Source: Acidimicrobiales bacterium (GTDB taxonomy: Bacteria > Actinomycetota > Acidimicrobiia > Acidimicrobiales > Aldehydirespiratoraceae). Taken from it: a stretch of DNA of 64,000 nucleotides. Both the position numbers and the translations under genes were made by a program. How positions within the stretch are numbered: the stretch's first letter is position 1; every line of letters begins with the position of its first letter. Below, one piece after another: positions 52,753 through 63,923 of the stretch. The notes below the pieces were generated by a model that worked only from the letters and a program-made list of their open reading frames with translations, was not told the origin of the DNA and did no database searches. The stretch is from assembly GCA_033344915.1 (NCBI GenBank), contig JAWPML010000001.1, positions 3,367,736 to 3,431,735 on the forward strand. The letters run 5' to 3'.

Positions 52753-54552
52753 CTAGCGGTAGGCCGCCGCCTGGATCGCGAAGAGCTCGGCGTACTGACC
52801 GCCGGCGGCAACGAGCTCTTCGTGGGTCCCGAACTCCACGACCCGGGCGCCGTCCATCACCACGATCAGGTCGGCCATCCGCACGGTCGAGAAGCGGTGC
52901 GAGACGAGGATCGTCAGCCGGTTCGAGTCGGTCTGTTCGCGCGCGGCGCGGGCGAACCCTTCGAAGAGGGCGTGTTCGGTCTCGGCGTCGAGGGCGGCGG
53001 TGGGCTCGTCGAGGATCATCACCAACGGCTCGTCGCGCATGAACCCCCGCGCCAGCGCCAGCTTCTGCCACTGGCCGAAGCTCACCTCGACCCCCTCGTC
53101 CCAGGACGGGCCGAGCTGCGTGTCGAGACCGGCGGCCAACCGCTCGACCACGTCGTCCGCACCGGCCCGCCCGATCGCGGTCTCCGCCGCCTCGCGGGAA
53201 TCGAGCCGCACGATGTCGCCCACACCGACGCTGCGCTGGGCATGGAACTCGAAGCGGAAGAAGTCCTGGAACGCACCACCGAGTTTCTCGCGCCACTCGC
53301 GGGTCGGCATCGTGGCGATGTCCACGCCGTCGGCCGTGATCCGACCACTCGTCGGGGCGTACATGCGAGCGAGCAGCTTCACGAGGGTCGACTTGCCGGC
53401 GCCGTTCTCCCCGACCACGGCGATCACGGCACCGGCCGGCAGTTCGAGCGTGATGTCGTCGAGCACGATCGGGTCGGTGCCGGGATAGCGGAAGCTGACG
53501 TGCTCGAACCGGATGGCGTCCTCGAGCTGGGTGGGCGCGGACGCCGTGGCGGCGTCGTCGATCGACGCCGAGTAGTCCTCCAGCCAGGTCAGCCGCCGTG
53601 AGGCGTCGAGCCAGAAGCCGCGCAGGAACCCCATCTCGCCGGCCGTGCCGCCGACGTAGCGGGCCAGCTGGGTCCCGGCCGCGACCACGAGCACGACATC
53701 GCCCACGCCGCGGTCGAGCACGGAGCTGACGTAGACGATGGCGCCGACGTAGCCGGCGCCGAAGATCGCCCACACGAGGCACTGCCACGCCGCGGTGACC
53801 CACCGCACTCGGGCGACGGGGCCGTACCACTGTTCCCACACGCGCCGCCGTTCGTCGGTCAGCCACGCCCCGCTGTTGGTGACGCGGACCTCCTTGCCGG
53901 GGGGCGCAGTGGTGCCGAGGTCGAAGAGGTGACGCGCGAGTCGGGTGTTGGCGATGACCGACTCCTCGACCCGGCGCTCCACCGCTGGCCGCCACGTCGA
54001 CGCGTAGAACGCCGGAAGCGAGCACGCGAGGAGCAGCACGAGCACCGGATGGATCGAGGCGAGCAGGGCGGCGATCACGACGAGCCGGAACAGCCAGCCC
54101 AGCGTGGAGAACAGGGACATGAACAGGTGATCGAGGGTGAACACCTGGTCGCGCAGCATGGCGAGCCGGTCGAGGTACTCCGGGCGTTCGTGGTGCTCGA
54201 TGGTCGGCACCGAGGCCTGGAGTTCCGCGACGTGCGATTCCAGCGCGATCACCACCCGGTCGCGGAAGCGGCGTTGCACCCGCTGGGAGAGCACGCCGAG
54301 CCACCAGGTCGCCGAGGTCGAGATGGCGAGACCGATCGCGGCGACGACGATCACATCGCGGTCGCCGTCCACCACGCCGTCGATGAGGAACTTGAGCCAG
54401 AGGGCGAGGAGGGCGTCCGGCAGCATCATCAACAGGGCGAGCAGCAGCGAGATCCCCAGGAGTCGGGGTTCGGCCCGCCAGCCGAGCGAGAACGTCCGCC
54501 AGAGCGACCGGAACCCACCGGGCAGCGGCTCGGGGGCGTCAGAGCGATTCAT
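52753..54552 (-). CDS. ABC exporter (fused membrane and ATPase domains), second of a pair
   Basis: 599 residues from the ATG at 54552. Six membrane helices in the first 330 residues (first: LLGISLLLALLMMLPDALLA), then the ATPase domain: Walker A VVGENGAGKSTL, Q-loop GGAFQDFFRFEF, Walker B MILDEPTAALD and the switch His in ILVSHRFSTVRMAD. The signature is altered, VSFGQWQKLALARG for LSGGQ, so this may be the less active half of a heterodimer with the overlapping exporter upstream. It could move lipids, peptides or glycan parts. The start overlaps the neighbour's stop by 14 bases. Confidence 0.87.
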   Translation of the reverse strand: MNRSDAPEPLPGGFRSLWRTFSLGWRAEPRLLGISLLLALLMMLPDALLALWLKFLIDGVVDGDRDVIVVAAIGLAISTSATWWLGVLSQRVQRRFRDRVVIALESHVAELQASVPTIEHHERPEYLDRLAMLRDQVFTLDHLFMSLFSTLGWLFRLVVIAALLASIHPVLVLLLACSLPAFYASTWRPAVERRVEESVIANTRLARHLFDLGTTAPPGKEVRVTNSGAWLTDERRRVWEQWYGPVARVRWVTAAWQCLVWAIFGAGYVGAIVYVSSVLDRGVGDVVLVVAAGTQLARYVGGTAGEMGFLRGFWLDASRRLTWLEDYSASIDDAATASAPTQLEDAIRFEHVSFRYPGTDPIVLDDITLELPAGAVIAVVGENGAGKSTLVKLLARMYAPTSGRITADGVDIATMPTREWREKLGGAFQDFFRFEFHAQRSVGVGDIVRLDSREAAETAIGRAGADDVVERLAAGLDTQLGPSWDEGVEVSFGQWQKLALARGFMRDEPLVMILDEPTAALDAETEHALFEGFARAAREQTDSNRLTILVSHRFSTVRMADLIVVMDGARVVEFGTHEELVAAGGQYAELFAIQAAAYR

Positions 54553-56347
54553 GGACGATCTCCTCCCCGTGCTCGTCCAGCTCCGGGATCCCCTCTTCGA
54601 AGCGGGAGGCCTGGAGCTCGAACATCGTCTCGTAGCGGCCACCGAGTGCGACGAGCTCCTCGTGGGTGCCGAGCTCGATGATCCGGCCGTCCTCGACCAC
54701 GGCGATGCGATCGGCGAGCCGGACACTCGAGAAGCGGTGCGAGACGAGGATCGTCGTGCACGATGCGGTCGCGGTCAGCACCCGCTCGAAGATCTCGGCC
54801 TCGCCCCGCACGTCGAGCTGGGCCGTCGGCTCGTCGAGCAGGACGACGCGGGCGCCGGCGTCCACGGCACACAGGGTGCGGGCCAACGCGATGCGCTGCC
54901 ACTGGCCGCCGGACAGATCGGTGCCGCCGGGATACGCCTTCGAGAGAATCGTGTCGAGATCGCCGCCGGCGAGCTCGTCGGCCCCGGCGGCCCGCAGCGC
55001 GGCATGGATGCGATCGTCCGGAGCACCGAGCGGCGCGACATTGGTGCGCAGGGGCAGCTCGAACTTCACATAGTCCTGGAAGACCGCGGTGAGATGGCTC
55101 CGCCAGGCGCCGAGATCGAGGTCACGCAGGTCGATGCCGTCGACCTCGATCCGTCCGGCGGTCGGGTCGTAGAGGCGGCACAGCAGTTTCGCGATCGTCG
55201 TCTTGCCCGCCCCGTTCTGCCCCACGATCGCGAGCGACGTGCCGGCCGGGATCTCGAGGTCGATGCCCTTCAGCACCAGCCGATCATCGTGGGGATAGCC
55301 GAACTCCAGCCCCCGGAAGGCGAGCGCCGGCGCCTCGGCCGGCGGGGCGATGGTGCCGACGGCACGCACCTGATCCTGCTCGGCCAGTGCCGCCTCGAGA
55401 CGGTGGAGCGCGGCGACCGGCGCGGCCGCTCCGTCGAGGGACCAGTTGAGTCCGCCGAACGCGATAGACGACACCCCGATCGCCGCCTGGATGAACACGA
55501 CGGTGCGCGCCTCGCTCAACGTGCCGTTCGCGGCCTGGTCGGCGATGAGCCAGAAGACGAACAGGTTGGCCGCGATGACGATCGCCATCGCCATGAAGAC
55601 CGACTTCTCCCGGAGCCGGGTGGCCTCGTACTGGAGCTCGTAGAGACGGCGGCGGGTGGTGATGAACCGATCGATGACCCAACCGGCGACGCCGAAGTAG
55701 CGGATCTCCTTGGCCGGCGCGGCGTCCACGGCCAGCCGGTACGTGTAGTCCGCGTGACGCTGGGCGTTGCGCACCTCGTCGGTGTTGCGGTCCTTCCACA
55801 CGCCGCTCTCGCGCAGGAGCCAGTGGGTCGATCCCCAGGCGAGCACGATGACCGGTGGGATCCACCACTCGAAGCCGAACAACAGGGTCGCCGCCGCGAT
55901 CCCGACCACGAGATCGACGAGGCCGGTGGCGATGAAGTCCATCGACACGGCGAGCGGTGGTCCCATGATCCCGAGGTCGAAGTCGCGGGCCATGGTGAGG
56001 TCGTTGACGAGCGCCGACGACTCCAGATGTCCGATCCCCTCGGGGCCGGTGGACAACTGCATCAGGCGGTCGTAGAGGTACGCAGCCGTGCGGCTGCCGA
56101 GGTTCGCACTCACGGCCTGGTGCAGCGGCTGGACGACCAGCATCAGGGTGAACATCGAGCCGACGAGGACCAGAGGTCCGGTCAGGCTGTGGTCGGCGGT
56201 GACCGCGGCGACGAGCCAGCCGAACGCGAGCGACACGACCGCGGGAAGCACGCCGCGCAGGACGACGAGGATCCACCAGAGCGTGGCGTAGACCGGCGCG
56301 GCGCGGTACAGGGCACGGGCGAACTGGATCTCCGGGCGATTCCGCAC
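54539..56347 (-). CDS. ABC exporter (fused membrane and ATPase domains), first of a pair
   Basis: 602 residues from a GTG at 56347. Six helices (WWILVVLRGVLPAVVSLAFG at the start), ATPase with Walker A IVGQNGAGKTTI, intact signature LSGGQWQRIALARTL, Walker B VVLLDEPTAQLD and ILVSHRFSSVRLADR. It probably pairs with the downstream exporter, whose signature is degenerate, as a heterodimer. Start lies 92 bases from the divergent YVMVPVPEE-family gene, near polysaccharide cluster 2. Cargo unknown. Confidence 0.88.
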   Translation of the reverse strand: MRNRPEIQFARALYRAAPVYATLWWILVVLRGVLPAVVSLAFGWLVAAVTADHSLTGPLVLVGSMFTLMLVVQPLHQAVSANLGSRTAAYLYDRLMQLSTGPEGIGHLESSALVNDLTMARDFDLGIMGPPLAVSMDFIATGLVDLVVGIAAATLLFGFEWWIPPVIVLAWGSTHWLLRESGVWKDRNTDEVRNAQRHADYTYRLAVDAAPAKEIRYFGVAGWVIDRFITTRRRLYELQYEATRLREKSVFMAMAIVIAANLFVFWLIADQAANGTLSEARTVVFIQAAIGVSSIAFGGLNWSLDGAAAPVAALHRLEAALAEQDQVRAVGTIAPPAEAPALAFRGLEFGYPHDDRLVLKGIDLEIPAGTSLAIVGQNGAGKTTIAKLLCRLYDPTAGRIEVDGIDLRDLDLGAWRSHLTAVFQDYVKFELPLRTNVAPLGAPDDRIHAALRAAGADELAGGDLDTILSKAYPGGTDLSGGQWQRIALARTLCAVDAGARVVLLDEPTAQLDVRGEAEIFERVLTATASCTTILVSHRFSSVRLADRIAVVEDGRIIELGTHEELVALGGRYETMFELQASRFEEGIPELDEHGEEIVHESL

Positions 56348-56439: not shown

Positions 56440-56850
56440 ATGGAGTACGTGATGGTGCCGGTGCCCGAGGAGCTCGTCGACGACGTTCGCCGCTATCTCG
56501 ACTGGAACCTCGCCGCCCCGACCGTCGAGATCGACAACCCGGACGCCCTCGAGGAGGTGGTCGGCGCGACGACCGGACACATGCGGGTGCTCGCCGACCG
56601 GATCGCGGAACTCATCCTGGACGGCACGGCGCCGACCCTCCCCGACCTCGCGGCCGAGCTCTCCATCAGCACCCACGAGGCGCTCGGGCTGATGCACGAC
56701 CTCAACGCGCGGCTCCGCAACGCGGGAGGACCGATGGCGGTGGTGCTCGCCCAGGTCGACCCCGAACCGAAGCCGGACGACCGAACCGACTTCGACCATC
56801 GGCTCCTCATCATGTCGATGAAGAACGCGGCCCGGGTCCGCAACCTCTAG
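56440..56850 (+). CDS. YVMVPVPEE-family small protein A (uncharacterised)
   Basis: 136 residues from the ATG at 56440. It opens MEYVMVPVPEELVDDVRRYL and shares its full plan with the gene at 60223: the same nine-residue opening, a helical middle, then a helix-turn-helix-like stretch (LPDLAAELSISTHEALGLMH followed by DLNARLRN) and a final beta-strand. No cysteines, no membrane segment. The stop overlaps the stop of the giant methyltransferase/glycosyltransferase gene by four bases. Regulator or adaptor of the glycan cluster is a guess from position; I know no family with this opening. Confidence 0.7.
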   Translation: MEYVMVPVPEELVDDVRRYLDWNLAAPTVEIDNPDALEEVVGATTGHMRVLADRIAELILDGTAPTLPDLAAELSISTHEALGLMHDLNARLRNAGGPMAVVLAQVDPEPKPDDRTDFDHRLLIMSMKNAARVRNL

Positions 56851-59800
56851 TCGATCCGCTTGAGGAACCCGCCGGGGTTGAAGGTCAGCGAGTACTTCTC
56901 CATCGCCGGATCCGGCATGAAGTCACCGAAGCTCCCGAGGATCTGCTTCACGCCCTCGGCGGGCCCGGGGCCGAACTCCGGCCAGACAGGGCGACCGTTG
57001 ACGACAGTGTCGGTCACGACCACGTAGGAGCCGGACGGCACGAATCGTTCGAGCTGCTTGAACTCGCGGAACGTCGCCGCCCGATCGACCCGTCCCCCGA
57101 GGACGACCATCGCCGACCCTTCGCCGACCAGCTCGGCGACGGCGTCTGCCGTGCGCTTCTCGCCGGCGTCGCCGTCCAGCGTCGTGATGCGGTCATGGGT
57201 CGCCATGTCGTCGGCGGCACCGAGCGCCACCACGGTGCCGTGGCCGACGAGGTCACACATCGACGCGAAGAACAGGGTGCGCCCGCCGTCGCCGGCGCCG
57301 GTCTCGACGATCACGTCCGGGCGAACCCGCTCGATGATCTCCTGATAGGCGAGCAGGTCCGTCGGTGCGTCAGCGATCGCCCGCCCCAGCCACGACGTGT
57401 GCCGCCAGGGAAGGCTCAACCAGGTGGCCTCGGTGAACGCGGCAGCCAGGTCGTCGGCGACGGGCGCCGGCGTCTCGGGTAGCCCGCGTTCGTCCGTGAC
57501 GTTCACGAACGCCCTCGGCTCGAGCCGGCGGGACTTGGTGCGCCGCGCCGCGTCGGTCGGGAGCCGCCCGACGAAGTGCAGGGGTTTGCCGGGTCCCTTG
57601 AACGCGCGACCGCGGAGCTCGGCGAACTGCCTCGCATAGCCGTGGACGCGGGTGCGGCGAAGCGCCGGATCGATCTGGTTCGTCGTGGTGCCGCCGTGGA
57701 TCTGATGGAACGACCCCTCGCCGATCATGGAGCAGACGGTGATGTCCGGCGACGTGCCGAGCCGCTCGTAGAGCTCGAGGTTGGCGTAGGACCCACCGGG
57801 CTCGTCGAAGCCCTCGTCGAGGCCACCGACCTGCTGGAGTTGAGCGCGCGACACGACGAGGCAGTTGCTCTCCCACACGCCGTCGAACCAGTCGCGATCA
57901 CCGACGAACGAGCCGATCTCGAACAGCCGGTAGCCGGCCCGGGGCCACTTGATCTTCTCGAAGAGCTCGTCCTCGTAGGCCTGGTCGTAGCCATCGTCCA
58001 TCGCGTCACCCTGCTGACCGGGGCCGACGTAGAACTGCTGGGTGGCGACGATCGCCGGCGCGTGGTTGCGCATCGCCATCGTCGCGAAGTGGTACACGCC
58101 GGGGGTGAGGACGTGGGCGCCGTCGATCATGATCGCGACGTTCTCCCCCGCGCACTCACCGATCGCCTTGTTGAGGGCGAACACGGGTGACGGCTTCGCC
58201 TCGTCGCCCATGTCGAGCAGGCGGAACTCCGGGCCGAAGCTCTCGACGAAGGACGCGTCGAGTCGCTGGTCGGCGGCCGATCCGTTGTCGATCGCGATGA
58301 CCTCGAAGCGGAGATCGTCGATGTTCTCCTGGTACGAGCGTGAGAGCGACCGCAGGGTGCGCTCGGCTTCGCGAGCCATGTTGTGGAACACGACGACGAC
58401 GCTGAGATCGAGCTCTCCCGACGACGCGGGTCGCACGAGCGGGGCCCCGCCGAACCCGGCCGCGGCCGCAACAGCCGCGGCTTTCCCGGTCGTGGAGCCG
58501 TCGCCGGCCGACTTGACCCACGACACGGTGAGATCGTCGTGACGTTCGAGCGGTGACTCGATGCCGTGGTCGGCGTGGAACGATTCGATGCCGGCCCGCA
58601 GCCCGTCGTCGCCCGACTCGTCCACGACCACGACCCCGCCGACGGCGACACGGTCGTAGAGGAGCGTCAGCGCGTCGAGCGACTCGGATCCGGCATGGCC
58701 GATCCGCAGGAGGGCGATCTCCTCGACCGGCGCGGCCGGCAACGTCGACGCCAGGGGTCCGGTGAGGAACGAGACCCGGTCGTCGAGCAGGTCGAACGAG
58801 TCGAATCCGTCGCGCACCATGTTGAGGTCCGCCTGGAAGCCACTGAGGCCCTGTTTCGGCATCGTCGGGCGGGTGTCGGACCCTGGCGCGGACCGGAACC
58901 GATCGGCCACCCACACGCGGCGGTCGTCGAGCTCGTGGCCCTCGAGATAGGCCCGCAGGAAGATGGCCCCGCCACCGCGACCGGTGCCGCATTCGACGAG
59001 GTCGCCCGGGACCGCGTTCACCCGGACATGGTCGAGCAGCGATTCGAGATGGTCGAGACGACTCCGCCCCATCGCGGTCAGTGGCAGGAACGACGACGAC
59101 GCGGCCCCATCGGGGCCGCTCTCGCCCGAGCGGGCCCGGACCAGCGCGTTCATAGCCGGCTTGTCGTAGCGAGCGGGATCGCGCAACGCCGCCGGATCCA
59201 CCGGCTGATCGGTGCCGATGCGATCGACGAGGTGGGCGAGGCGGGCCTCGTTCTCGAGATAGTGCTCGTTGAGCAGCGCCTGCTTGACCACGCCGAGATA
59301 GCGAGCGGTCGCGCGGGCCTGGTACTGCTCGCGCTGGAAGAAGACGTTGTGCTGGAACAGCATCGCCTTGAGACGGATGTCCTCCGCGACCTCGAGGAGC
59401 TCGAGGCGCGTCTCCGAGGACTCCAGGCGATCGAAGGCCGCGGCCAGCTCCGGCTCGGCCGCGAGGCGCTCCTCCTCCACCACGAACGCGAGCCCGAAGT
59501 AGAAGGGGAGAACGATCACCCGCAGCGGCTTCGGATACTCCTTCACGAAGTCGTCGAGACCGGTCATGACCCCGTTGCGCTCGCCGCCCTCCTCGAGGGC
59601 GTTGGCCATCGTCGGGTTGAGCCCGCCCTTCTTGGCGAGCTTCTTCTGACCGGGCCGCATGCCGAGATGGTCGTAGGGCTGACGACGTTCCTCGGGCACG
59701 TTCGACGGGTCGTAGTAGAGGTCCCGCCGGCCGTAGGGCCAGCACACGTCGTGGAGGATCATGACGGGCATGGCCACACCGGCGCGGGTCGCACTCGCGG

Positions 59801-60116
59801 CGAGCATGCTGCACTCGTTGTAGACCGTCCACCAGTTGTGGTCGCCGTCGATGAGCGCGGCGTCCATGGGTTCGAGATCGGGGAGCACGTCGAGGCTGAG
59901 CGCCTCGTGGAACACGTACTGGCCGGGGAACATGCGCTCGTGTTCGCCCGGATCGAAGTCCGGCACCGGATCGATGACGTGCAGTACCGCCTCCGGACCG
60001 AGGTGTTCGAGGATCTGAACGGTGTTCTCGCCGCGCAGCGCGCCGATCTCGACGACCTTGCGGGCGCCGGCGGCGCGCAACACGGGCGCGATGGCTACAT
60101 CCCAGAGGGGAAACAT
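56847..60116 (-). CDS. Four-domain giant: methyltransferase, TylF-like methyltransferase, GT2 glycosyltransferase, CmcI-like methyltransferase
   Basis: 1089 residues. (1) 18-215: class I methyltransferase, KVVEIGALRGENTVQILEHL and DAALIDGDHNWW, ending in a helical region. (2) 345-536: TylF/macrocin O-methyltransferase-like, GDLVECGTGRGGGAIFLRAY, VWVADRF and VVVVDESGDDGLRAG. (3) 570-815: GT2, LSVVVVFHNMAREAERTLRS, VIAIDNGSAAD, and AIMIDGAHVL in the DxD position. (4) 905-1085: CmcI/rhamnosyl O-methyltransferase-like, DVIVETGAGDGGRTLFFASM. No membrane helix. It would add a sugar and methylate up to three positions on the same glycan. It sits between two paralogous small genes and next to an ABC glycan exporter. 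The domain order is not one I recognise. Confidence 0.8.
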   Translation of the reverse strand: MFPLWDVAIAPVLRAAGARKVVEIGALRGENTVQILEHLGPEAVLHVIDPVPDFDPGEHERMFPGQYVFHEALSLDVLPDLEPMDAALIDGDHNWWTVYNECSMLAASATRAGVAMPVMILHDVCWPYGRRDLYYDPSNVPEERRQPYDHLGMRPGQKKLAKKGGLNPTMANALEEGGERNGVMTGLDDFVKEYPKPLRVIVLPFYFGLAFVVEEERLAAEPELAAAFDRLESSETRLELLEVAEDIRLKAMLFQHNVFFQREQYQARATARYLGVVKQALLNEHYLENEARLAHLVDRIGTDQPVDPAALRDPARYDKPAMNALVRARSGESGPDGAASSSFLPLTAMGRSRLDHLESLLDHVRVNAVPGDLVECGTGRGGGAIFLRAYLEGHELDDRRVWVADRFRSAPGSDTRPTMPKQGLSGFQADLNMVRDGFDSFDLLDDRVSFLTGPLASTLPAAPVEEIALLRIGHAGSESLDALTLLYDRVAVGGVVVVDESGDDGLRAGIESFHADHGIESPLERHDDLTVSWVKSAGDGSTTGKAAAVAAAAGFGGAPLVRPASSGELDLSVVVVFHNMAREAERTLRSLSRSYQENIDDLRFEVIAIDNGSAADQRLDASFVESFGPEFRLLDMGDEAKPSPVFALNKAIGECAGENVAIMIDGAHVLTPGVYHFATMAMRNHAPAIVATQQFYVGPGQQGDAMDDGYDQAYEDELFEKIKWPRAGYRLFEIGSFVGDRDWFDGVWESNCLVVSRAQLQQVGGLDEGFDEPGGSYANLELYERLGTSPDITVCSMIGEGSFHQIHGGTTTNQIDPALRRTRVHGYARQFAELRGRAFKGPGKPLHFVGRLPTDAARRTKSRRLEPRAFVNVTDERGLPETPAPVADDLAAAFTEATWLSLPWRHTSWLGRAIADAPTDLLAYQEIIERVRPDVIVETGAGDGGRTLFFASMCDLVGHGTVVALGAADDMATHDRITTLDGDAGEKRTADAVAELVGEGSAMVVLGGRVDRAATFREFKQLERFVPSGSYVVVTDTVVNGRPVWPEFGPGPAEGVKQILGSFGDFMPDPAMEKYSLTFNPGGFLKRID

Positions 60117-60150
60117 GGGACCGAGAGTAGCCCAGCACCGGCGCCTCGGA

Positions 60151-60179
60151 TTCGGGCCATTCGGGCCATTTCTGGGCCA
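60151..60179. repeat. 9-base tandem repeat in the divergent promoter region
   Basis: TTCGGGCCA is repeated at 60151 and 60160, then a longer TTTCTGGGCCA (60169-60179), between the giant gene (start 60116) and the second YVMVPVPEE gene (start 60223). Confidence 0.75.
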
Positions 60180-60192
60180 AGTTTCTCGTCGG

Positions 60193-60198
60193 TATAGT
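60193..60198 (+). promoter_or_regulatory. Candidate -10 box of the YVMVPVPEE-B / Wzt / Wzm operon
   Basis: TATAGT, 25 bases before the ATG at 60223, in an otherwise GC-rich sequence; a leader of about 18 bases is implied. The -35 region (TTCTGG, 17 bases upstream) is weak. AGGAGG sits five bases before the ATG. Confidence 0.4.
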
Positions 60199-60222
60199 GG
60201 GCGACTGACATCAGGAGGATTG

Positions 60223-60672
60223 ATGGCCTACGTGATGGTGCCCGTACCGGAAGAGTACGTGGAGGATGTCATGAACTACATGCTCAAGGCGATGGCGCGC
60301 GCCTCGCAGGAGCAGTGGGACCAGGAGAAGGTCACCGAACTGTTCGCCGAGGTCGACGAGCTGTCCAAGGCGTTGCTCGCCCATGTCGCCCGGGCAATCG
60401 TCGAGGGTCGGGAGGTCTACGAGACCGACGCCGCCCAGGCGGTGCAGCTCAGCCAGCGCGAGACGGCGGCGATCGTTCGCGAGCTGAACGAGCTCGCGCG
60501 CGAAGCGAACCGTCCGTCGATGATCTTCCGCCGGCCCACCGTGGAAGTGCTCCCGAACGGCCGCACGATGGATCGCTTCGCGATCGTGGTCGAGGAGGAG
60601 ATCGCGCCACTGGTACTCGAAGCCGAGAAGGCCGACCTGGCGGCCAACCCGCTCCCGGGCTCCGCCGGATGA
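60223..60672 (+). CDS. YVMVPVPEE-family small protein B (uncharacterised)
   Basis: 149 residues with a strong AGGAGG ribosome site. The N-terminus MAYVMVPVPEEYVEDVMNYM matches protein A; the middle LLAHVARAIVEGREVYETDA and AAQAVQLSQRETAAIVREL are helical with a helix-turn-helix flavour; the end RTMDRFAIVVEEEIAPLVLE is a strand and acidic helix. Its TGA overlaps the ATG of the Wzt-like ATPase, so it is the first gene of the export operon. Whether it regulates, or serves as a small partner of the exporter or giant enzyme, is open. Confidence 0.75.
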   Translation: MAYVMVPVPEEYVEDVMNYMLKAMARASQEQWDQEKVTELFAEVDELSKALLAHVARAIVEGREVYETDAAQAVQLSQRETAAIVRELNELAREANRPSMIFRRPTVEVLPNGRTMDRFAIVVEEEIAPLVLEAEKADLAANPLPGSAG

Positions 60673-61469
60673 CCGACGCCGCTCCCGCGGCGACCACGCC
60701 GATGGTCGAGAAGCCCGCACTCGAGGTCGAGAACCTCTCGGTGCGCTACCGCGTCCGCCGCGGCAGCTCGGGCGTCGTCATCGATCTCGCGAAACTGCTG
60801 ACCGGTCGCCGCACGCCGGACCGCGTCGTCAACGCCGTCAAGAACGTCACCTTCGAGGTGCCGAAGGGCGAGACCCTCGCCATCGTCGGGCGCAACGGGG
60901 CCGGCAAGTCCACCCTGCTGCGGGCACTGTCCGGTGCGCTGCCGCCCGCGGAGGGACGCATCACCGTGCGGGGCCGGGTGTCGCTCCTCGCCCTCGGACT
61001 CGGCATGAATCCGAAGCTCTCCGGTCGTCAGAACATCCGCCTCGGCGGACTGGCCGTCGGCCTGGACGAGGACCGGCTCGAGGACCTGACGCCGGAGATC
61101 GCGGACTTCGCCCAACTCGGCGAGTACCTCGACTATCCGATGGACACCTACTCGGCGGGCATGCGCTCGCGGCTGGGGTTCGCGGTGGCGGCGAACCTCG
61201 ACCCGGAGATCCTCCTCATCGACGAGGCGCTGGGCGGCGGCGACGCCGGCTTCACCGAGCGCGCCCGGGTGAAGCTGGCCGAGCTCATGGCGGAGCACCG
61301 AACGATCATCCTCGTGACCCACGGGCTCAGCTCGGTTCGGTCGATGGCCACCAGCGCCCTCTGGATGCACCAGGGCGAGGTCGCCCAGGAGGGCGATCCG
61401 GAGGACATCATCGCCGCCTACATGCGCTACTGCCGCCTGGAAGACCTCGAGCTCCCGGACGAGAACTGA
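60669..61469 (+). CDS. Polysaccharide/teichoic-type ABC exporter ATPase (Wzt/TagH-like)
   Basis: 266 residues from the ATG at 60669. VENLSVRYRVRRGSSGVVID followed by a 25-residue insert and VKNVTFEVPKGETLAIVGRN is the pattern of Wzt-like ATPases. Walker A GRNGAGKSTLLRAL, the LALGLGMNPKLSGRQNIRL loop specific to this subfamily, signature TYSAGMRSRLGFAVA (SxGM instead of SGG), Walker B ILLIDEALGGGD, switch ILVTHGLSSVRSM. There is no C-terminal glycan-binding domain as in some Wzt. Overlaps the small gene upstream by four bases and is two bases from the permease gene. Confidence 0.9.
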   Translation: MTDAAPAATTPMVEKPALEVENLSVRYRVRRGSSGVVIDLAKLLTGRRTPDRVVNAVKNVTFEVPKGETLAIVGRNGAGKSTLLRALSGALPPAEGRITVRGRVSLLALGLGMNPKLSGRQNIRLGGLAVGLDEDRLEDLTPEIADFAQLGEYLDYPMDTYSAGMRSRLGFAVAANLDPEILLIDEALGGGDAGFTERARVKLAELMAEHRTIILVTHGLSSVRSMATSALWMHQGEVAQEGDPEDIIAAYMRYCRLEDLELPDEN

Positions 61470-61471
61470 TC

Positions 61472-62452
61472 GTGAGCACCACCGACGACGTCACCGAAGC
61501 CGACGACGAGCCGACGCCACTCGGGGCGAGCGAGACCGAGGAGCTCACCCGCTCGGCCCGCAGGTCGCAGCGGGCGCAGCGACGCGCCGCGAAGGAGGAC
61601 CGCAAGACCCGCGTGGCGGATCCCGATGACGAGATCGTCTTCGTCTACGAGCCCTACACCCGCTACGTCCCGCCGTTGCGACCCTACGTGCGCGAGCTCT
61701 GGCGGCGGCGGGCCTTCGCGCGGGAGATGGCCCGCTCGAAGGTCCAGGGCAAGCGCTCGGGCAACGCGCTCGGCGCCGTCTGGTCGCTGCTCGACCCCAT
61801 GTTCATGGTGGGCATCTACTACTTCCTGTTCACCGTGATCCGCGAGGGGGCCCGCCCGGCGACCTTCGTGCCGATGCTCATCTCCGGCATTCTCCACTTC
61901 CAGCTCACGTCCGGCGCGCTGAACGAGGGCGGCGCGTCCGTCGCCGGTGCGACGAACCTCATGCTGAACTCGACGTTCCCGCGGATGCTGTTGCCGCTGT
62001 CCACGATCTACGCCGGGGTCATGGCCTTCGTCCCGTCGGTCGTCATCATCTTCGGCGCCCTGGTGCTCCTGGACGTCGACATCAGCATGCAGCTGTTCTG
62101 GTGGTTCCCGATCTTCGCGCTCCAGATGTGCATCTCCCTCGGGCTGGCGCTGATCATCTCCACCGCGGTCGTGTTCTTCGCCGACATCAAGAACCTCCTC
62201 ACCTACATCACCCGCATCATCTTCTTCACGTCACCGGTGATCTATCCGGCCGAGTTCCTCACGCCGGAGATCATCAACGCGATCCGGTGGTCGCCGTTCT
62301 TCGGCGTGTTCTTCAACTACCAGCGGATCATCAACGCCGCCCGCCCCGACTGGGGAATGATGACCATCTCGATCGGTTGGGCCGTCGCCAGCGTCATCCT
62401 CGGGACCTGGCTGTTCCTGCGCTACGAGCGGGAGTTCGCCTCCCACGGCTGA
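61472..62452 (+). CDS. Polysaccharide ABC exporter permease (Wzm/TagG-like, ABC-2)
   Basis: 326 residues from a GTG at 61472. A charged N-terminal 60 residues, then VRELWRRRAFAREMARSKVQ with GNALGAVWSLLDPMFMVGIY, the ABC-2 amphipathic helix and first membrane helix; six helices in all, with the RIIFFTSPVIYPAEFL motif seen in Wzm-type permeases. Works with the ATPase two bases upstream to export an undecaprenyl-linked glycan. The convergent sulfotransferase begins 12 bases beyond. Confidence 0.9.
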   Translation: MSTTDDVTEADDEPTPLGASETEELTRSARRSQRAQRRAAKEDRKTRVADPDDEIVFVYEPYTRYVPPLRPYVRELWRRRAFAREMARSKVQGKRSGNALGAVWSLLDPMFMVGIYYFLFTVIREGARPATFVPMLISGILHFQLTSGALNEGGASVAGATNLMLNSTFPRMLLPLSTIYAGVMAFVPSVVIIFGALVLLDVDISMQLFWWFPIFALQMCISLGLALIISTAVVFFADIKNLLTYITRIIFFTSPVIYPAEFLTPEIINAIRWSPFFGVFFNYQRIINAARPDWGMMTISIGWAVASVILGTWLFLRYEREFASHG

Positions 62453-62464
62453 CCGAAGGCCCGG

Positions 62465-63061
62465 TCAGACCCGCGGCGGCTGCTTGCTCTTGTTGCTGTG
62501 GGGGAACGCCTGCTCCGGTTCGGGCAGGTCCAGCAGCCGACAGAACGGGGCCCATCCGGCCCCCGCGGTGATGTCCACCTCGACGAAGTCGTCGCGGCCC
62601 GCGAAGTACTCGCGCGCACCTGCGTAGTGACGCTCGTACTGGCGGCGCCACTTGTCCTCCTCGACCACGAGGAACGTGCCGTCGTACTCGCCGCGCGCCC
62701 GGCGCTGCTGGTTGTTCTCGACATGACGCCGACGGCTGTCCAGCCACTTCTCCAGTGGACGGACGGTGAGCATGAAACGGCTGCCCGGGTACTGCTCGTC
62801 CAGCAGGGCGTAGTTCTTCGCCAACACCTCGATGTCGGAGAAGCAGTCGATCGACTGGTCGAGGTTGGCGAGCAGGGGTTGGCCGGCGTCGCGGGCCGCC
62901 TCGATCTGCATGCGGATCGGCGGGCCGCCCCAGTGGAGACTGTGAAAGCCGAGGACGGTCATGGCGTCGTGGAACGAGGTCGTGCCCGTCTTGTTGAGAC
63001 CGATGCCGAAGACCCGGGGCCGATCCGGCACGGCGCTGCCGGGCCGCGGCGCGTCAGCCAT
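62465..63061 (-). CDS. Sulfotransferase-family protein (PAPS-binding), small
   Basis: 198 residues. VFGIGLNKTGTTSFHDAMTV is the 5'-phosphosulfate loop of sulfotransferases, and SRFMLTVRPLEKWLDSRRRH holds the 3'-phosphate-binding strand with RPxxxWLxS. It transfers sulfate from PAPS to a hydroxyl group, here probably of the cluster 2 glycan. Single domain, no signal or membrane helix. Overlaps the next sulfotransferase by eight bases (63054-63061), so they form an operon. Confidence 0.82.
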   Translation of the reverse strand: MADAPRPGSAVPDRPRVFGIGLNKTGTTSFHDAMTVLGFHSLHWGGPPIRMQIEAARDAGQPLLANLDQSIDCFSDIEVLAKNYALLDEQYPGSRFMLTVRPLEKWLDSRRRHVENNQQRRARGEYDGTFLVVEEDKWRRQYERHYAGAREYFAGRDDFVEVDITAGAGWAPFCRLLDLPEPEQAFPHSNKSKQPPRV

Positions 63062-63923
63062 CGATCCAGGCTTTCATCGAGTCGTGGTCGCCGTACCCGG
63101 CGCGGTCCATGGTGTCGGCTGCGACCGCGACGAACTCCTTGCGGCGCTTCTTGTCCCACTCGGACCAGTCGTCGTCGTCGGGACGCGTCGGGTCGAGCTT
63201 GAACGAGGAGCCGATGCGTTTCTTGTCGAAGAAGTTGCCGGGGCCCGGATGATGCCGGAGGTCGAGGAACTCGAGGATCGTGGCGAACTGGTCGTGCGGG
63301 TCGGCGGAGACCTTCTCGTTCCAGACCGTCAGACAGCGATCGGGTTGCGCTTCGGAGAAGTCGAGACCGGCCTCGACCCAGGTCGCCCACGTCTCGGCGC
63401 CCTTGCGGAGATCGTTGCTCCACTTGGGGATCTCGTTGGCCTTGGCGTTGGCGAGCAGTTCGTCGTCGAATTTGCGCTCGAAGTTGGTCATCGACCGCAC
63501 GACATGACGACCGTCGCGCACGATGTGGATGAACTTCGCGCCGGGGAACATCTTCGCGAGCGTGGGCGCCATCGGCGTGTAGAGCGGCGTCTGATCGATC
63601 CAGCGCAGGCCCTCGCTGCGCGACGAGAACAAGGCGTTGATGCCGAGGCCGACGAACGCCAGCCATTCATCGAGTTCGACGTCCTCGTGGTCGAGCCAGC
63701 ACGGCGTCGCCCGCCCCATCTGGTTCTCCCAGATCCGCTCGGCCCGGCCGTCCTTGAACAGGTCGGACAGGACATAGCTCTCCTTGCCGACCCGCAGGTC
63801 CGGGTGGCGGTTGAGCGATTGGGCCGTGGCGGTCGTGCCCGAGCGGGGTGACCCGATGACGAACACCGGATTCGGGCAGATGCCCTCCAGCCCGAGATAG
63901 GGCCGCACGTGTTCCATGCTCAC
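63054..63923 (-). CDS. Sulfotransferase (PAPS-dependent)
   Basis: 289 residues from a GTG at 63923; the four-base overlap with the upstream stop (GTGA) supports this over an ATG two codons later. PVFVIGSPRSGTTATAQSLN is the 5'-phosphosulfate loop, and AKFIHIVRDGRHVVRSM the 3'-phosphate motif with RDxxxVxxS-type spacing. It fits the Stf0/heparan-sulfotransferase-like bacterial group. Part of the same sulfation operon. Acceptor unknown. Confidence 0.88.
   Translation of the reverse strand: MSMEHVRPYLGLEGICPNPVFVIGSPRSGTTATAQSLNRHPDLRVGKESYVLSDLFKDGRAERIWENQMGRATPCWLDHEDVELDEWLAFVGLGINALFSSRSEGLRWIDQTPLYTPMAPTLAKMFPGAKFIHIVRDGRHVVRSMTNFERKFDDELLANAKANEIPKWSNDLRKGAETWATWVEAGLDFSEAQPDRCLTVWNEKVSADPHDQFATILEFLDLRHHPGPGNFFDKKRIGSSFKLDPTRPDDDDWSEWDKKRRKEFVAVAADTMDRAGYGDHDSMKAWIDG

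Follow-up and report, generated by a model that had tools for sequence, protein, structure and literature searches.

A conserved four-module methyltransferase-glycosyltransferase protein with two probably non-catalytic modules in a putative glycan assembly and export locus of Acidimicrobiales

In the available parts of the literature cited here, the multi-module proteins that build or finish exported polysaccharides are those of Gram-negative O antigens. The ORF6 protein of Klebsiella pneumoniae O7 carries a methyltransferase and two family 2 glycosyltransferase (GT2) modules on one polypeptide in an O-antigen system that depends on an ATP-binding cassette (ABC) transporter (PMC11231755). The O12 protein WbbB, which combines polymerase and terminator in one polypeptide, is a looser parallel, as are WbdD/WbdA of E. 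coli O9a. In proteins of this kind, a coiled-coil ruler ends in a terminator, for instance a kinase-methyltransferase (PMC11231755, PMC3482155). Here, a stretch of 64,000 nucleotides from an Acidimicrobiales genome (genome C1 3367736-3431735, hereafter the window; coordinates are window positions unless marked genome) was analysed around a gene at 56847..60116 (-) for a protein of 1089 residues. Pfam matches, a shared module order and a structure model divide this protein into M1 (Methyltransf_24), M2 (TylF), M3 (GT2) and M4 (CmcI). Judging from sequence, it is probably a sugar-adding, methylating assembly enzyme with two non-catalytic methyltransferase-fold modules, working in a locus that builds and exports a glycan.

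The protein resembles O7 ORF6 in joining methyltransferase and GT2 modules in one polypeptide beside an ABC exporter. Compared with O7 ORF6, O12 and O9a as these sources present them, it has three methyltransferase folds, two of them without catalytic residues, which belong to different methyltransferase families; it occurs as two paralogous copies, and a small winged-helix gene stands at the exporter. No kinase module was found by Pfam in the four-module protein and no domain-sized stretch is left unassigned; the available text on O7 states that its kinase is itself not recognisable by sequence (PMC11231755). There is also no long coiled-coil ruler in the model, where the longest helix has 48 residues, as judged from the model and not by a coiled-coil program. 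Among the matches listed from the open-licence literature, there was no paper on the four-module fusion, the small family or an Acidimicrobiales glycan locus. Set against the described O-antigen proteins, the locus would be a separate, actinobacterial solution. It makes testable whether pseudo-methyltransferases serve as glycan-binding or scaffold modules, and it adds a small-protein family without Pfam match that is tied to a Wzm/Wzt-type exporter.

Architecture and distribution of the four-module protein

The open reading frame (ORF) matched, in this order, Methyltransf_24 (residues 22-114, E 1.6e-15), TylF (271-534, E 2.9e-49), GT2 (572-707, E 5.2e-5, 23.7 bits against a cut-off of 23.3) and CmcI (904-1088, E 3.9e-32), which confirms the four modules and the order that a first-pass annotation of the window had assigned from the letters. 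A chance match is excluded because all four Pfam families were matched by each of the 27 members (27/27) of a family alignment (A4). Out of 42 distinct proteins containing M2-M3-M4, 37 have the order M1-M2-M3-M4, the other five are without M1 in the same ORF, and a different order was found in none. The expectation in the annotation that domain order would be conserved across genomes is borne out by these 37 proteins, and the fusion is not unique to one assembly.

Nearly all of the 37 four-module proteins come from Acidimicrobiales genomes or metagenome-assembled genomes (MAGs), or from records titled actinobacterial. In a sample of the family, the protein was present in 4 of 51 genomes and in one genus only. 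Within the genus of the window, both copies are complete in G000, G025 and G029, G028 has only copy 2, split into two pieces, and three of the seven genomes are without the protein; the cluster is largely syntenic in G029, where it lies on one contig and a few genes differ or are uncalled, and in pieces of G025 and G028. In the order sample, where genomes were counted if their matches spanned two or more modules, 17 of 397 genomes have the fusion (incomplete in G180, G300 and G366). Among 396 genomes of the phylum, the window's own was the sole one to contain the whole fusion at E 1e-90, G481 matching residues 1-289 only. A named collection was scanned with two M1 peptides as seeds, by which M1-less fusions could be missed, and among the best 80 of 217 relatives the full-length matches carry the titles Acidimicrobiales, Acidimicrobiia, Aquihabitans, Actinomycetes and Actinomycetota, plus one Acidobacteria. 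The last was considered as a case outside the order and rejected, since the record (isolate B69T1B8; L094, L096) matches G396, which is placed in the window's order. One of the two copies in B69T1B8 has an in-frame TAG.

The second four-module protein of the window's genome is encoded in the same cluster at genome C1:3449529-3452795 (L008:6529-9795, +), 22 kb from copy 1, and is 50% identical to it. In a tree of the 42 proteins, copy 2 of the window's genus groups with L094 (support 100/98) and copy 1 falls in a clade of 15 devoid of copy 2 (support 97/95); the duplication therefore looks older than the genus. An AlphaFold2 model of the 1089-residue protein has a mean pLDDT (predicted local distance difference test) of 77 and a pTM (predicted template modelling score) of 0.51, so that the relative placement of the modules is unreliable. 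A long helix lies at residues 234-281, between M1 and M2.

Catalytic signatures, folds and selection

To compare the modules, their sequences were aligned and motif columns were read at positions fixed by the motifs, gapped rows being excluded as unreadable. M2 (residues 271-545; 58482..59306, -) was assigned by Pfam, structure search and motif columns. It shares fold and S-adenosylmethionine (SAM) motif with the sugar O-methyltransferases TylF, MycF, NovP and SpnH, but the aspartate of LR[LM]DGD and the aspartate pair of DDY, a triad which we take to be catalytic or metal-binding, never stand together in readable members of the four-module family (0/42, one gapped). The triad is likewise incomplete in all six readable M1-M2(-M3) ORFs (0/6). 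In controls it is complete, both in every readable TylF protein that stands alone (17/17) and in the one GT2-M2 fusion (1/1).

M4 (residues 896-1089; 56850..57431, -), assigned by the same three means, has the fold of CmcI and the rhamnosyl O-methyltransferases and the C-terminal motif of its stand-alone relatives. This motif is near-invariant (G of NGxPV in 41/41, R of xGFLKR in 40/41 with one gap). Unlike in those enzymes, the LDxDH acid and the E-D pair, presumably also a catalytic or metal-binding triad, never occur together in readable family members (0/39, two gapped), nor in any of 12 M3-M4 ORFs, two of which are fragments of the four-module family; all controls have the triad (7/7 stand-alone, 2/2 M1-M4 fusions). 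The SAM residues of M4 are altered in 27 of 41 family members, and M4 of copy 2 is also without SAM-motif residues that M4 of copy 1 retains. The score of M4 is far under the cut-off of the rhamnosyl-methyltransferase equivalog model (88.7 against 400). The claim in the first-pass annotation of four catalytic modules thus fails for M2 and M4. Its proposed check for SAM sites gave a divided answer: M1 has the site and M2 has the SAM residues, but M2 is without the catalytic set and M4 is mostly without either.

The structure prediction that the annotation had proposed agrees with the module assignments, the folds of M2, M3 and M4 being recovered in the model as MycF, chondroitin polymerase and CmcI types. 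The M2 model aligns with MycF at Z 30.0 (rmsd, root-mean-square deviation, 1.8; 197 aligned; Z 27-30 across TylF, MycF, NovP and SpnH), and the M4 model with CmcI at Z 19.3 (rmsd 2.6, 171 aligned). Pairwise identity within the family is 61% for M1, 42% for M2, 63% for M3 and 48% for M4. The ratio of nonsynonymous to synonymous substitution rates (dN/dS) for M1, M2, M3 and M4, respectively, was 0.040, 0.121, 0.046 and 0.066 between copy 1 and its ortholog, 0.056, 0.105, 0.084 and 0.074 for copy 2, and 0.13, 0.34, 0.22 and 0.26 in a more distant pair. All four modules, M2 and M4 included, are under purifying selection. With the triads lost and dN/dS well below 1, M2 and M4 would therefore be kept for non-standard work or for a reaction with other residues.

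M1 (residues 1-262; 59331..60116, -), a Methyltransf_24-type module by Pfam and motif columns, is the only methyltransferase module that retains its catalytic signature. Of 35 readable family members, 34 have an unaltered SAM motif and unaltered DGDH and HD residues (L097 is changed and one more is gapped), as do 44 of 45 stand-alone M1 proteins. M3 (residues 567-870; 57507..58418, -) was assigned by Pfam, structure search and motif columns to a conserved GT2-like subfamily with a GT-A fold and without DXD. In all 42 family members (42/42), DGA[HR] stands where DXD is expected, together with GE[GA]xFHQxHGG. DGA[HR] is a subfamily trait and not decay, because it is also carried by all 26 readable stand-alone M3 relatives (26/26), for example L007:15602-16507 (-). 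The M3 model aligns with chondroitin polymerase at Z 20.6 (rmsd 2.9, 224 aligned), and heparosan synthase GT-A domains were also recovered. A sequence search of PDB chains with M1 alone or M3 alone gave no match at E 1.

The same modules are joined in other ways in other phyla. Three ORFs from Desulfocapsa and Proteobacteria MAGs are M1-M3 fusions, and an M3-M4 gene is followed by an M1 gene in Dyella, Rhodanobacter, Caulobacter, Hyphomicrobiales and Parvibaculaceae. Gemmatimonadota (L154) has M2 plus an M1-M4 fusion, and Bradyrhizobium (L150) an M3-M2 fusion plus an M1-M4 fusion. Six very long proteins were also chosen from the 15 long M1-only ORFs, and in each of them (6/6) M1 stands in front of GT2/GT4-type modules. 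L154 and L150 are like the present case in having the M2 and M4 families, L150 also M3, but differ in that M2 and M4 retain their catalytic residues and the modules are split over two polypeptides. These recurring fusions suggest that M1 to M4 are tied to one process. In Dyella, Rhodanobacter and relatives, an N-terminal region of ~250-390 residues with a GWAW motif precedes M3-M4 (e.g. L113:9146-11710, +); a hidden TylF module was sought in it and rejected, M2 profiles failing with a best E of 0.08 with filters off and an hhalign probability of 0.2.

Exporter, small winged-helix family and proposed role

Next to copy 1 lie adjacent genes for an ABC ATPase of 266 residues (Wzt/TagH-like; 60669..61469, +) and a Wzm-like ABC-2 permease (61472..62452, +), both assigned by Pfam and other family models, which together make an exporter of the Wzm/Wzt type. 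Family-model matches of the exporter include TagH and galactan export, and ATPase-type matches of the Wzt extend to about residue 255 of 266. The cap-recognising Wzt of capped O antigens (O9a type) has an extra C-terminal carbohydrate-binding domain; at 266 residues, the present Wzt has no room for such a cap-reading domain.

The exporter is coupled to a small gene at 60223..60672 (+), assigned by model and family comparison, which encodes 149 residues, is preceded by AGGAGG at 60213-60218 and overlaps the Wzt start by 4 bases. A second small gene at 56440..56850 (+), recognised by ORF call and family comparison, encodes 136 residues starting VMVPVPEE; it lies tail-to-tail with the four-module gene, with an overlap of 4 bases. 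The two proteins share 29% identity (E 1-2e-8) and have no Pfam match up to E 10. The first-pass annotation was right that small paralogues lie on both sides of the four-module gene and that one is coupled to a Wzt/Wzm-like exporter. Proteins of the family begin with a YVMVPVPEE-type sequence, and a winged helix, the fold of MarR-like regulators, is predicted for them (model pLDDT 86); the model aligns with MepR at Z 10.0 (rmsd 3.5, 97 aligned), and AF1382, Orc and other winged helices tie with it. DNA binding was argued from charge and this argument was rejected: 21 of 22 rows have an isoelectric point (pI) of 4.4-5.2 (the 7.15 row being the doubtful G236), and the genome is equally acidic. 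The median pI of 73 local genes is 4.88, and five helix-turn-helix or sigma regulators picked by eye lie at 5.0-6.3.

In the order sample, the small family was found in 8 genomes, whose best matches reach at least E 7e-34. All 8 belong to the 17 genomes that carry the fusion, and the remaining 380 have none, bar a doubtful match in G236 (E 9e-4). The co-occurrence with the fusion that the annotation had anticipated is thus seen, and Fisher's exact test gives p 1.7e-12 (1.5e-11 with G236 counted), values that are too good since the 8 positive genomes represent only three families and 6 of the 8 supplied rows of the search profile. This profile (A3) was built from loci beside fusion genes, by which members far from fusions may be under-detected; G180 and G292 are the two positive genomes that supplied no rows. 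The phylum sample gave one further weak match only (1.6e-4).

In every assembly whose retrieved stretch contains the exporter (11/11: G000, G025, G029, G073, G159, G239, G180, G292, G389, G419 and L085), the gene immediately upstream of Wzt or Wzm, and on the same strand, is a small-family gene. The genes overlap by 4 bases in 8 of the 11 and, as the genes were called, are ~2 to 41 bases apart in three of one genus. In a twelfth assembly, L103, the 20 kb retrieved contain one small gene and no exporter. A second small-gene copy is present in 9 of 10 genomes examined (one cut by a contig end), G419 having one copy, and it lies within ~3.5 kb of a four-module gene in 8 of the 9.

Neighbouring genes were counted around those of 41 collected fusion genes whose flanks reach 8 kb or more, which gave 33 distinct genes at 29 loci; the window's own genome was left out. 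A sulfotransferase-like gene is near 23 of the 33, a PhyH gene near 21 and a stand-alone M3-type GT2 gene near 17, the last counted as M3-only ORFs since the search also matches M3 of nearby fusion genes. As a rough control, four stretches taken from outside the cluster in the window's genome, a pair of 24 kb and a pair of 20 kb, contained 2, 0, 1 and 0 of the families. This linkage supports a sulfated, methylated, exported glycan as the product, and a glycan assembly and export locus, as the annotation had proposed, is supported.

In the role that we favour, the locus of ~33 kb would build a decorated glycan, presumably a surface glycan, and export it through the Wzm/Wzt-type ABC transporter. 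M3 would add a sugar, and M1 would O-methylate either the glycan or one of its sugars. For M2 and M4, the most likely task would be to keep the glycan chain in place or orient it, or to act as a scaffold for the complex. Both diverged copies, ~50% identical, would serve this one locus, and the small winged-helix proteins may be exporter accessories that either regulate the locus or dock assembly proteins to the exporter. In a more elaborate version, which we regard as rather doubtful, M3 and M1 write, by adding and methylating a sugar, and the growing chain is read by M2 and M4, methyltransferases that have become glycan-binding modules without catalysis and that set its register or length, with the copies paired and a dedicated winged-helix adaptor linking the complex to the exporter.

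Several points weigh against the favoured role. M3 is without the DXD motif, and its activity is deduced from conservation and fold; the structure search barely covered M1. The fusion is patchy, occurring in 4 of 7 genomes of the genus and 17 of 397 of the order. Both exporter genes are near only 10 of the 33 fusion genes, on contigs that are often short. The ATPase alone is near 3 more, a weak match that also occurs once in a control stretch and was not counted as an exporter. The glycine and aspartate of the M2 SAM motif are retained in 38 of 42 members, so that M2 could still use SAM, and catalytic residues can migrate. These last points, with the well-kept folds and the purifying selection on every module, would fit an enzyme in which all three methyltransferase modules are active, M2 and M4 through non-standard residues, and one polypeptide extends and multiply methylates, or caps, the glycan. 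We consider this unlikely, given triads lost in 42/42 (M2) and 39/39 (M4) readable members, probably in one or few ancestral events so that the counts are not independent, against 18/18 and 9/9 kept in controls, and given the changed SAM residues of M4.

A similarly improbable reading makes the protein not a polymerase but a scaffold or a regulator of chain length, in which M1 places a methyl group on the chain end and the pseudo-methyltransferases measure or hold the chain, like the coiled coil of WbdD-type terminators. The non-catalytic appearance of M2 and M4 and the helix at 234-281 would suit it, and methyltransferase-GT fusions are reported, in the text available, from ABC-transporter-dependent assembly (PMC11231755). 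It sits poorly with a protein in which neither a kinase module nor a long coiled coil is seen, with a Wzt too short for a cap-binding domain, and with M3 being the most conserved module (63%), which points to activity. It appears more improbable still that the ABC transporter exports no polymer but a secondary metabolite or a small glycolipid. The best-known TylF and CmcI enzymes belong to macrolide, aminocoumarin and cephamycin pathways, the nearest solved relatives of M2 (MycF, SpnH, NovP) and M4 (CmcI) act on small molecules, and PhyH dioxygenase genes are common neighbours. Against such a product stand several GT4 and GT2 genes, a Wzm/Wzt-type exporter with TagH and galactan-export matches, and the 18 cluster genes that were scanned, none of which encodes a synthase for polyketides or peptides.

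Other genes of the locus

The glycan cluster spans ~33 kb from genome C1:3424175 to ~3457358; the window end cuts across it, and the block runs on for ~25 kb beyond. Within the window, downstream of the permease, are the two overlapping sulfotransferase genes that the first-pass annotation had listed, a Sulfotransfer_4 type (62465..63061, -) and a Sulfotransfer_3 type (63054..63923, -; ATG at 63917 may be the start), both assigned by Pfam and sharing 8 bases (63054-63061).

Past the window end, the cluster encodes a GT4-GT2-GT2 protein of 1270 residues, a stand-alone GT2, a DegT-type aminotransferase, an FkbM methyltransferase and two GT4 proteins. It also contains a hexapeptide transferase (below the Pfam cut-off), three PhyH dioxygenases, genes without match, and three P-loop sulfotransferase-like genes that were identified by eye, with Pfam below cut-off or absent. 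A further protein of 1003 residues (L007:12467-15478, -) joins a sulfotransferase to a probable coiled coil and could serve as a ruler-bearing chain terminator. A related case is L190:4998-9788 (+), and four ORFs of ~1250 residues whose start is similar to that of the 1003-residue protein lie near exporters elsewhere. In G335, a sulfotransferase-like start, recognised by eye, is fused to glycosyltransferases resembling the 1270-residue neighbour.

Just outside the block, at 52753-56347 (-), lie two ABC transporter genes in tandem, encoding ~600 residues each, with the ATPase assigned by Pfam and the membrane part by eye. Relatives of the cluster aminotransferase and GT4 are also present at positions 1-24000 of the window.

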